Origin: Streptomyces sp. YIM 121038
GTDB taxonomy: Bacteria > Actinomycetota > Actinomycetes > Streptomycetales > Streptomycetaceae
Length of the DNA: 64,000 nucleotides
Reading direction: 5' to 3'
Assembly (NCBI RefSeq): GCF_006088715.1
Contig: NZ_CP030771.1
Coordinates: 4,030,001 to 4,094,000 of the forward strand
Position numbers and translations under genes: made by a program. Below are positions 21,601 to 23,154 of this stretch, one piece after another; the first letter of the stretch is position 1; each line of letters starts with the position of its first letter. The notes under the pieces are model-generated. The model had not been told where the DNA came from and made no database searches. It worked only from the letters and a program-made list of their open reading frames with translations.

Positions 21601-21864
21601 TCAGACGGCCGCTTTCTTCAGGCGGCGGCGCTCGCGCTCCGAGAGGCCGCCCCAGATGCCGAAGCGTTCGTCGTTCGCAAGCGCGTACTCAAGGCATTCC
21701 GAGCGGACCTCGCAGGCGAGGCAGACCTTCTTGGCCTCGCGGGTGGAGCCGCCCTTCTCGGGGAAGAAGGACTCGGGGTCGGTCTGGGCGCACAGTGCGC
21801 GCTCCTGCCAGCCGAGTTCGTCGTCCGCGTCTTCGACCAGCAGTTCCTGAACCAGCTCGGTCAT
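21601..21864 (-). CDS. whiB: sporulation transcription factor WhiB
   Basis: Iron-sulfur WhiB-like regulator needed, with WhiA, for aerial hyphae to stop growing and septate. The 87-residue length and sequence match the Streptomyces WhiB as I know it. The [4Fe-4S] ligands are Cys25, Cys48, Cys51 and Cys57 (KKVCLACEVRSEC). The GIWGG turn (69-73) is followed by a basic C-terminal tail RERRRLKKAAV. ATG 21864 has GAGGGG upstream. It is the mycobacterial WhiB2 equivalent and lies next to fbiA in both genera apart from the cysteine dioxygenase insertion here. Confidence 0.97.
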   Translation of the reverse strand: MTELVQELLVEDADDELGWQERALCAQTDPESFFPEKGGSTREAKKVCLACEVRSECLEYALANDERFGIWGGLSERERRRLKKAAV

Positions 21865-21936
21865 ATGCGCCCCTCGTCTGTCTTCGCGTCCCCGTGGTGC
21901 TGCCGTTACCGATTTCGGCTGAACGACACGAGTGAA

Positions 21937-21966
21937 ATTACAAGTGTGCCGATCCGGGGCAGTCAA
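21937..21966 (-). promoter_or_regulatory. whiB promoter (vegetative-type)
   Basis: On the minus strand TTGACT (21961-21966) and TGTAAT (21937-21942) are 18 bp apart, which would give a leader of about 65 nt. A GACAC pentamer, the core reported for WhiA binding, lies just downstream near 21925 on the plus strand; that link is inference. Confidence 0.55.
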
Positions 21967-22075: not shown

Positions 22076-22334
22076 GTCCCATCGCCCGGCAGGCATCGCG
22101 TCACGTCCACTCACCGACAGGGACGCCACGACTCGCACTCCCGTTGCAGCGAACTCGCCGAAGCGAACCGGATCACATGTGGATCACGGGGTCGCGACGG
22201 CGGCCGAGCGCCGGTTGACGCGCCGGTTCGAGCGCCGGTTGGTGCGGCTTGTGTCCCCTGAAGCGCCGCACAAACCTTTCCCCTGACAGAACAACCGGAT
22301 GCGGTGAAACATTGTCCACATTCCGGACATCGAG

Positions 22335-22363
22335 TTGACAGGTGAGGTGTAAGCCGCTGTCCT
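22335..22363 (+). promoter_or_regulatory. promoter for leaderless cysteine leader peptide
   Basis: A consensus TTGACA (22335-22340) is followed 17 bp later by TGTCCT (22358-22363). The expected transcription start falls at about 22370-22371, the A of the leader-peptide ATG, so the message would begin directly with the start codon. Confidence 0.5.
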
Positions 22364-22370
22364 GGTGGGC

Positions 22371-22475
22371 ATGCTCGCGAACTTGGCGCTTTCCGTGACC
22401 CGCAACAGCGGGTCTGCCGGTGCTGCCCCCGCGCGCTGTCGCTGTACCTGTGCGTGTGCCTGTTCCAGCTGTTGA
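22371..22475 (+). CDS. polycysteine leader peptide (34 aa) of the cysteine dioxygenase gene
   Basis: A short frame starting MLANLALSVTR and ending CRCTCACACSSC just before TGA at 22473-22475. Six of the last 12 residues are Cys, and all six use TGT, the disfavoured Cys codon in high-G+C Streptomyces. It is 163 bp upstream of a cysteine dioxygenase gene and has no ribosome site but a well-placed promoter, so it is probably leaderless. Polycysteine leaderless leader peptides that sense cysteine supply are known from mycobacteria. By analogy, ribosome speed through this tract should report Cys-tRNA charging and control the downstream gene. The direction of control is not evident from the sequence. 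Confidence 0.7.
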   Translation: MLANLALSVTRNSGSAGAAPARCRCTCACACSSC

Positions 22476-22626
22476 GCCACACCGTCTCCAGCCGTTGAAC
22501 CGCTGAGCCACCGCCAGGCCCCGGTCACCCCGCTCCCCGGCGCCCGCTCCGCACCCGGCCCGCACCCCCGAGCAGCACCTCTCCGCTTTCTGCCCCGCGA
22601 CACCCCAGCACTCTTACGTTGAGGAA
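22476..22626 (+). promoter_or_regulatory. C-rich, G-poor spacer between leader peptide and cysteine dioxygenase
   Basis: After the leader stop codon the message is strikingly richer in C than in G (for example CACCCGGCCCGCACCCCCG and CTCTCCGCTTTCTGCCCCGC) and shows no strong hairpin with a T-run. That is what a Rho loading region looks like. It ends in GAGGAA (22621-22626), the likely ribosome site of the next gene. Confidence 0.4.
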
Positions 22627-22638
22627 CCACCGCACCCC

Positions 22639-23154
22639 ATGAACAGCGACAGCGACCTCCAGATCGCCGGCGACATCCTCGAAGTCCCCCACCTCCTCCA
22701 GCCCCCGCGCGAGCACCCCGAAACCGTCGCGGAGTTCGCCGGACTCGCCCGCGCCATCGCCGCCGACCGCGCCCAGTGGGCACCCCTCGTCCAGTACGAC
22801 GCCACCAGCCGCTGGTACCACCGCCTGCGCACCGCGCCCGGCTACGAGGTGTGGCTGCTCTCCTGGGTGCCGGGACAGAGCAGCGGCTTCCACGGCCACG
22901 GCCGCTCCTCCGGCGTACTGACCCTCCTGGAAGGCCGGTTGACCGAACGCACCCGGCGCGGCAGCCGCACCCTCGCCGCGGGGGCGCAGCGCGTCTTCGC
23001 GCCCGGCTACGACCACGAAGTCGTCAACGACTCCCTGGAACCCGCCGTGAGCCTGCACGTCTACTACCCCGGCCTCACCGAAATGCCGATGCACACGGCC
23101 CGTTGCGAGGCACACGCGCCGCGGGACCCGGCGCGCGACGCACTCACCGCGTAG
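22639..23154 (+). CDS. cysteine dioxygenase
   Basis: Cupin iron enzyme that oxidises L-cysteine with O2 to cysteine sulfinate, controlling free cysteine and starting its breakdown. It has 171 residues. Fe(II) ligands are likely His85 and His87 in SGFHGHGRSSG and His126 in APGYDHEVVNDS. GAGGAA lies 12 bases before ATG 22639. In its usual form the first motif is GFHDHG; here it is GFHGHG. Its neighbours are whiB and fbiA; the gene is absent at that place in the mycobacterial order. The polycysteine leader upstream fits its substrate. Confidence 0.92.
   Translation: MNSDSDLQIAGDILEVPHLLQPPREHPETVAEFAGLARAIAADRAQWAPLVQYDATSRWYHRLRTAPGYEVWLLSWVPGQSSGFHGHGRSSGVLTLLEGRLTERTRRGSRTLAAGAQRVFAPGYDHEVVNDSLEPAVSLHVYYPGLTEMPMHTARCEAHAPRDPARDALTA

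Follow-up and report, generated by a model that had tools for sequence, protein, structure and literature searches.

The window, a stretch of 64,000 nucleotides from Streptomyces sp. YIM 121038, covers positions 4030001–4094000 of a genome of 11.1 Mb. It contains a gene identified in the preliminary description as a cysteine dioxygenase (CDO), an assignment confirmed by a match to PF05995 (CDO_I, E 5.1e-16), and this gene is preceded by a short leader frame (Table 1). Translation bears out what had been described for this frame, namely 34 codons with six cysteines in the final 12, all encoded by TGT, and a C-terminal end that reads CRCTCACACSSC; the gap of 163 nt between the leader and the CDO ATG (22639) is also as claimed. 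TGT is indeed the rare cysteine codon, with 23 occurrences against 326 of TGC in a background of four window genes and fbiA-like genes taken from the fetched loci. On the other side of the leader from CDO lies a divergent gene (21601–21966, minus strand), which we take, from a reading of its sequence, to be whiB-like. The leader peptide has no match in Pfam, and an Rfam search of the locus returned only three matches, all of them below threshold.

Table 1. Features of the leader and CDO locus, with positions in the window.
Feature	Position	Strand	Basis
Conserved DNA element, possible activator site, consensus about ACCGGATGAGGTGAAACATGTCCCACAT	22293..22321	+	Columns -78..-50 from leader ATG, 99 sequences
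-35-like hexamer TTGACA	22335..22340	+	Columns -36..-31 each at least 0.92 (99 sequences)
-10-like hexamer TGTCCT, ending 7 nt 5' of ATG	22358..22363	+	Fixed spacing; columns 0.84–0.99 (99 sequences)
Leader ORF, 34 codons, MLANLALSVTRNSGSAGAAPARCRCTCACACSSC followed by stop	22371..22475	+	Frame translation; ATG context common to 99 relatives
CGCTGTCGCTGT (Arg-Cys-Arg-Cys) within the Cys tract, perfectly complementary to CDO start over 12 nt	22434..22445	+	Complement search
Six Cys codons, all TGT (22437, 22443, 22449, 22455, 22461, 22470)	22437..22472	+	Codon reading
Spacer, 163 nt, C-rich; 74–277 nt in relatives	22476..22638	+	Composition and length across relatives
Possible short hairpin at leader stop, 3' side (CTCCAGCCG)	22486..22494	+	Motif CTCCRGCYG
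Shine-Dalgarno-like GAGGAA of CDO	22621..22626	+	GAGGR near CDO start in relatives
CDO gene, proposed target	22639..23154	+	PF05995 match
CDO codons 2–6, ACAGCGACAGCG, partner of Cys tract	22643..22654	+	Complement search; AGC bias of Ser codons

The spacer is C-rich and G-poor, as had been noted, with 52% C and 21% G in the window and means of 48% C and 23% G in relatives (96 sequences; the sequence sets are described below). No intrinsic terminator was detected in it or elsewhere between 22200 and 22760, so that the locus lacks the terminator of a classical transcription attenuator. The motif CTCCRGCYG occurs within 60 nt of the leader stop in 69 of 97 sequences and a 5-bp hairpin at the stop is retained in 64 of 97; RNAalifold shows only a weak local stem at this place. 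In 89 of 97 sequences, GAGGR lies no more than 25 nt from the start of CDO.

A consensus TTGACA followed by a 17-nt spacer had been proposed as the leader promoter. Both are present and conserved in 99 sequences, but the second hexamer, TGTCCT, agrees with TATAAT at only three of six positions; a strict sigma-70 scan found no promoter at the leader. The distance from the hexamers to the ATG is conserved in the same 99 sequences, alongside the hexamers themselves. Judging from the sequence, the leader transcript is probably leaderless, starting at or near the leader ATG.

Conservation of the leader

Upstream regions were compared for the best 80 among at least 400 confirmed loci for CDO in GTDB genomes and the best 30 from a genus draw of 295 genomes (294 of which have a CDO match), the window (L001) being included. 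Of these 110 loci, 109 were usable, one (L059) having just 32 nt upstream, and they comprise 99 distinct upstream sequences, a set that leans toward close relatives.

In all 99 sequences, the best frame has three to seven cysteines among its final 20 residues, and an in-frame ATG, which the script sought, lies 27–45 codons 5' of the leader stop. The leader ends in Cys-TGA in 97; the exceptions are L005, which ends in Arg, and L077, in which the Cys run is interrupted and the frame is longer. L077 is the locus of S. tagetis, where the standard tail has been lost and now reads RRSCRCSFCTACRACPARRGR before the stop, providing a natural variant for comparison. One clade has another N-terminus (e.g. 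MPATSAPSATHTRGYRSAVQARCCCCCSSC in L129) with a tail of similar type. For the leader body (codons 1–21, 89 sequences), the synonymous share of substitutions is 36% in frame, compared with 32% and 47% when the two alternative frames are read; selection of the protein type is weak here, and conservation lies in the frame, the Cys codons and the nucleotides.

In the preliminary description, a Streptomyces alignment that kept the Cys codons, the preference for TGT and the place of the stop between variable flanks was to count as support. This is largely what is seen: the first three are kept and the 3' spacer is variable, but the upstream promoter flank is conserved as well. The leader is real and conserved beyond chance, and its description as a polycysteine leader before CDO is supported by the 99 Cys-rich frames, with a leaderless start as the probable arrangement.

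Among more distant Streptomyces (L113–L131, chosen from a class draw), 18 of 19 loci have at least three Cys in the final 16 codons, L114 being the sole exception, and the terminal Cys is absent in L113, L117 and L121. Elsewhere in the family, genera outside Streptomyces likewise have Cys-rich frames 5' of CDO. More distant homologues of CDO within the class (L133–L152, with the upstream sequence counted from the match rather than from a called start, and the CDO paralogue L132 omitted) showed no comparable frame in 19 of 20 loci. In L143, from another family of the class, a short frame about 90 nt 5' of the CDO match ends in GGRCCRCC before its stop, and is a possible independent Cys leader.

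Cys tract, CDO start and predicted folds

In folds of whole leaders from five species, the Cys codons lie in most cases opposite the first CDO codons, AUGAACAGCGACAGCGAC. The window's pairing involves just the first two of the six Cys codons. In sets of 1500 each, its 12-nt match was attained by 7 synonymous leaders, 165 synonymous CDO starts and 1 shuffled leader. Across relatives, pairing was evaluated in 97 sequences, L005 and L077 being excluded, or in 96 when one more with a mis-called start was dropped. With G-U pairs allowed, the leader's longest complement within CDO positions -20 to +39 begins at CDO offsets 2–5 in 93 of the 97. The longest complement averages 12.84 nt, compared with 6.75 nt for later CDO windows and 6.10 nt for synonymously resampled leaders. 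With leader positions -21 to -8 set in a fixed register against CDO positions +3 to +16, 91% of the cells are paired (96 sequences), compared with 70% for the best of the other slides between -3 and +9 (96 sequences). Pairs at the helix ends are often broken, with 70% paired at -21 and 67% at -9.

The duplex energy is -35.4, compared with -28.4 when the leader is resampled and -29.1 when CDO is resampled; in 67 of the 97 sequences it surpasses 95% of the synonymously resampled leaders, but in only 20 of the 97 does it surpass 95% of the synonymously resampled CDO starts. Equally strong duplex energies arise at some windows further into CDO, and duplex energy alone was therefore rejected as evidence of pairing. 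Swapping the partners hardly changes the value (-33.9, compared with -34.3 for native pairs), and this comparison is uninformative.

Codon choice is constrained on both sides of the duplex. The Cys codon at -4 is TGT in 91 sequences and TGC in 3, that at -5 is TGC in 68 and TGT in 6, and that at -6 is TGT in 89 and TGC in 5, while serines among CDO codons 2–6 are encoded by AGC in 164 of 165 cases, compared with 241 of 752 in the remainder of the gene. Both the TGT/TGC pattern and the AGC serines fit the complementarity between the tract and the CDO start. Where tracts have diverged, the match shifts to another tract position, as in the window, where it falls on Arg-Cys-Arg-Cys. The final Cys codon is TGT in 96 of 97 sequences, yet it lies outside the CDO pairing and is hence unexplained by it. 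On the tree, the CDO side of the 14 pairs changed eight times (four of them at +14) and pairing was retained in six of the eight; no CDO-side change among the 14 pairs fell on the same branch as a leader change. Combinations at -19/+14 are CG in 44 sequences, TG in 22, TA in 22 and CA in 5 (p 2.8e-5, with relatedness ignored). The complementarity and the codon-choice bias, like the frame and its conservation, are shown by the sequences.

A stalled ribosome was represented by a footprint mask on the leader, and the unpaired fraction of positions -18 to +18 around the CDO AUG was calculated from equilibrium folds, which do not describe kinetics. Over 96 sequences, a mask at the middle Cys raised the mean unpaired fraction from 0.42 to 0.54, with a rise of more than 0.08 in 68 and a fall in none. 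Masks at the first Cys (up in 54, down in 2) and at the stop, where the mask overlaps the tract (up in 48, down in 0), each raised it from 0.42 to 0.51. Masks placed elsewhere left the mean at 0.42, both at the 5' end of the leader (none up, none down) and in the spacer (3 up, 7 down). The effect of the middle-Cys mask falls on the start region, which opens from 0.33 to 0.58, while the Shine-Dalgarno part goes from 0.53 to 0.45 (96 sequences). The window shows the reverse, the mask lifting the Shine-Dalgarno part from 0.24 to 0.52–0.54 and the start region merely from 0.36 to 0.37–0.40; smaller masks at its first two Cys codons leave the AUG less free (0.69 to 0.44–0.46). Hiding of the Shine-Dalgarno GAGG by the tract was considered as a rule for Streptomyces and rejected, access to it being no higher when the 5' part was removed (0.21 to 0.16–0.18, 89 sequences).

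For the remaining loci, start calling resolved 40 of 59, comprising 17 of 19 from Streptomyces and 23 of 40 from other genera. The mask opens the start region in 15 of the 17 more distant Streptomyces loci. In a related genus, g120, it opens the Shine-Dalgarno region and not the start in eight of nine loci with MYSD-type starts (e.g. 0.25 to 0.54), and the start in both loci of MNSD type. In eight g120 loci (L194, L199, L219–L223 and L231), the tract has the Shine-Dalgarno region of CDO as its pairing partner in place of the start region, so that the partner is switched and the logic kept; the partner-switch loci are all from this one genus. Among the 12 resolved loci of genera beyond g120 and Streptomyces, several of which have doubtful starts, the mask opens neither region in 10 and the Shine-Dalgarno region in 2. 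Wherever an effect is seen, the mask opens the CDO initiation region, and a stalled ribosome should therefore turn CDO on.

A candidate cysteine-sensing attenuator and its alternatives

Polycysteine attenuators encoded by leaderless small ORFs of mycobacteria were reportedly described by Canestrari et al. in 2020, a study cited in PMC13236596 and PMC9094748. In leaders of this type, a short leaderless ORF carries Cys codons near its stop, the tract masks the downstream ribosome-binding region, and the target is ON at cysteine limitation, in a way that depends on the Cys codons. Mycobacteria and Streptomyces belong to different orders of Actinobacteria. The CDO leader resembles these attenuators in being a short and possibly leaderless frame whose Cys codons cluster right before the stop, 5' of a cysteine-metabolism gene, and a short ORF with several Cys near the stop before such a gene was found in all 99 regions. 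In both, the downstream ribosome-binding region should be released when a ribosome stalls; masking of this region by the tract is seen in the computed folds of Streptomyces and g120, but not in 10 of the 12 loci of other genera. The CDO leader differs in that its target in Streptomyces is a cysteine-degrading enzyme, and in that the Streptomyces tract has complementarity to the region around the target's start codon and to its opening codons. It most likely works like the mycobacterial polycysteine attenuators, and what is new is the lineage, the target and the pairing partner.

Candidate cys-operon leaders in Mycobacterium, P. acnes and B. longum also have Cys-codon runs near the stop and lack a terminator hairpin (Seliverstov et al. 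2005, PMC1262725). Unlike here, Rho was suggested for them, and the accessible part of that article gives no leader for Streptomyces cysteine genes or CDO (PMC1262725). Two NCBIfam models, NF042934 (cis_reg_atten) and NF042933 (leader_Ms5788A), likewise describe putative Cys-rich leaders; neither matched the window leader or a representative Streptomyces leader at E up to 1, and five CDO leaders of other genera and one MPAT-type Streptomyces leader were also without a match. The accessible text of the open-licence PMC literature yielded no report of this CDO leader, which is also not among the eight S. lividans leaders named in the corresponding portion of PMC8079986.

We consider it probable that the leader is a cis-acting cysteine sensor that controls CDO by translational attenuation and turns it on at cysteine shortage. 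In the mechanism that we infer, which comprises a leaderless start, a stall, refolding and the sign of the response, transcription would begin at or close to the leader ATG. With ample Cys-tRNA, ribosomes would pass the Cys codons fast and then depart, and the freed tract would pair with the CDO start region, leaving little CDO translation; to judge from the window's own folds, the pairing may also reduce access to the Shine-Dalgarno sequence. With Cys-tRNA scarce, a ribosome would stall at the Cys codons and occupy the tract, and the CDO initiation region would open. Cysteine shortage would then turn CDO on, as it does cysteine-biosynthesis genes, and Rho would not be required. It is odd that a cysteine-degrading enzyme should be induced by cysteine shortage, and this counts against the mechanism. 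The preliminary description had reasoned that an enzyme of this kind would need a response opposite to the mycobacterial one; this is not supported, since the RNA anatomy predicts the same sign, with stalling as the ON state.

The tryptophanase leader of E. coli, tnaC, senses free tryptophan through nascent-chain arrest, which blocks Rho. The CDO leader is like tnaC in preceding an amino-acid-degrading enzyme, but its codon run and its pairing with the start region point to codon starvation and control of translation. In a Rho-dependent alternative, whose sign may be the reverse one known from the tna operon, full translation of the leader would protect or alter a C-rich, rut-like spacer, with CDO made when cysteine is plentiful. 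This agrees with catabolic logic and with a C-rich, G-poor spacer in which no intrinsic terminator was found, and Rho has been proposed, as a weak prediction, for mycobacterial cys leaders (Seliverstov 2005, PMC1262725). The spacer, however, varies in length from 74 to 277 nt whereas the complementarity between tract and start is retained, and Rho control leaves the TGT/TGC positions unexplained, as it does the AGC serines. The Rho-type attenuator put forward in the preliminary description thus finds nothing specific in its favor, whereas the complementarity supplies a mechanism, and we regard it as unlikely.

A transcription factor bound at the conserved upstream element could instead be the main control of CDO, with the leader fine-tuning expression or being a by-product. 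Positions -78 to -50 from the ATG are strongly conserved, and published H2O2 data concern mRNA levels, the induction being absent in an HbpS-SenS-SenR mutant (PMC4991794). Against this, when a 17-base version of the element was sought in the fetched cysI, CysA, CDO2 and metN loci of the same genome, no close match came up (best, four mismatches), and the conservation of the Cys codons and the complementarity would be left unexplained; this explanation appears quite unlikely. It is very improbable that the pairing is incidental and that the nascent Cys-rich peptide itself acts, by metal or thiol binding or as an arrest peptide, for although nearly all leaders (97 of 99) keep the Cys that precedes the stop, which lies outside the CDO pairing, the Cys arrangement varies freely (CRCTCACACSSC, CSCCCCSSC, CCCSSC) and synonymous choices are constrained.

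Expression data and other Cys-rich leaders of the genome

In RNA-seq of wild-type S. coelicolor treated with H2O2, SCO3035 rises 6.54-fold and SCO5772 8.0-fold, according to Table 1 of PMC4991794. SCO3035, annotated there as hypothetical (PMC4991794), is taken to be the CDO studied here because of its position next after SCO3034 (whiB), and SCO5772 is a putative cysteine dioxygenase, the second CDO (PMC3087709). The same source reports that cysN/D/C/H/I, cysA, cysM and metNIQ rise alongside, and that a mutant without HbpS-SenS-SenR no longer responds (PMC4991794). These mRNA data agree indirectly with CDO being ON at cysteine shortage, H2O2 not being a test of cysteine starvation. Another Streptomyces grown on Cys-rich feather is reported to induce cdo1 50.2-fold and cdo2 8.3-fold (PMC7181669); this induction, in which no correspondence to the present CDO genes is assumed, is against a simple reading of ON at shortage.

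Both CDO genes of the genome have Cys-rich leaders, namely the one studied here and one of NF042934 type. Streptomycetes may thus place cysteine destruction within the cysteine-starvation response, shortage of Cys-tRNA or oxidation raising both CDO genes together with sulfate assimilation; we hold this wider view tentatively, as a possibility somewhat short of probable. If it is true, CDO would serve in sulfur salvage (e.g. through sulfite that breaks extracellular disulfides) or act on another thiol substrate, rather than merely remove excess cysteine. If the leader works as proposed, an amino-acid attenuator would precede an enzyme that degrades the same amino acid, with a sign contrary to metabolic logic. 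Cysteine-sensing ORFs would be extended from mycobacteria to Streptomyces, and a leader would silence its target through start-codon pairing, constraining both codon usage and the N-terminus of the enzyme. Antibiotic producers would carry a readable reporter of Cys-tRNA status, and what bacterial CDO does when sulfur is limiting would become directly testable.

NF042934 matches the genome above cut-off at six places, four of which precede genes for a sulfite reductase, a cysteine-synthase-like protein, a thiosulfate-sulfurtransferase-like protein and the second CDO. Genes that follow leaders and have no family match carry names presumed from a reading of their sequences. Together, the Cys-containing leaders give the impression of a single cysteine-sensing set to which both CDO genes belong. 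The leader of the second CDO (L174, L181; genome positions 6918812–6919933), MTDTAVRLWRRVHMDLVRYAGCVCQPSC up to its stop, matches NF042934 with 37.1 bits (cut-off 27), and a rhodanese gene follows this second CDO gene. A metN-like locus (L173, genome positions 2065000–2068000) has a leader ending in GARCMCRMCAF. The S. lividans metL leader (MSTTSDRTPATEATTTPGARCMCRRMCAF) contains three Cys and is described as methionine-dependent (PMC8079986); it may sense cysteine. Two more NF042934 leaders above cut-off lie at 4708290 (L182) and 8862162 (L184), and the gene after the former may be a sulfatase, a guess from an out-of-frame reading.
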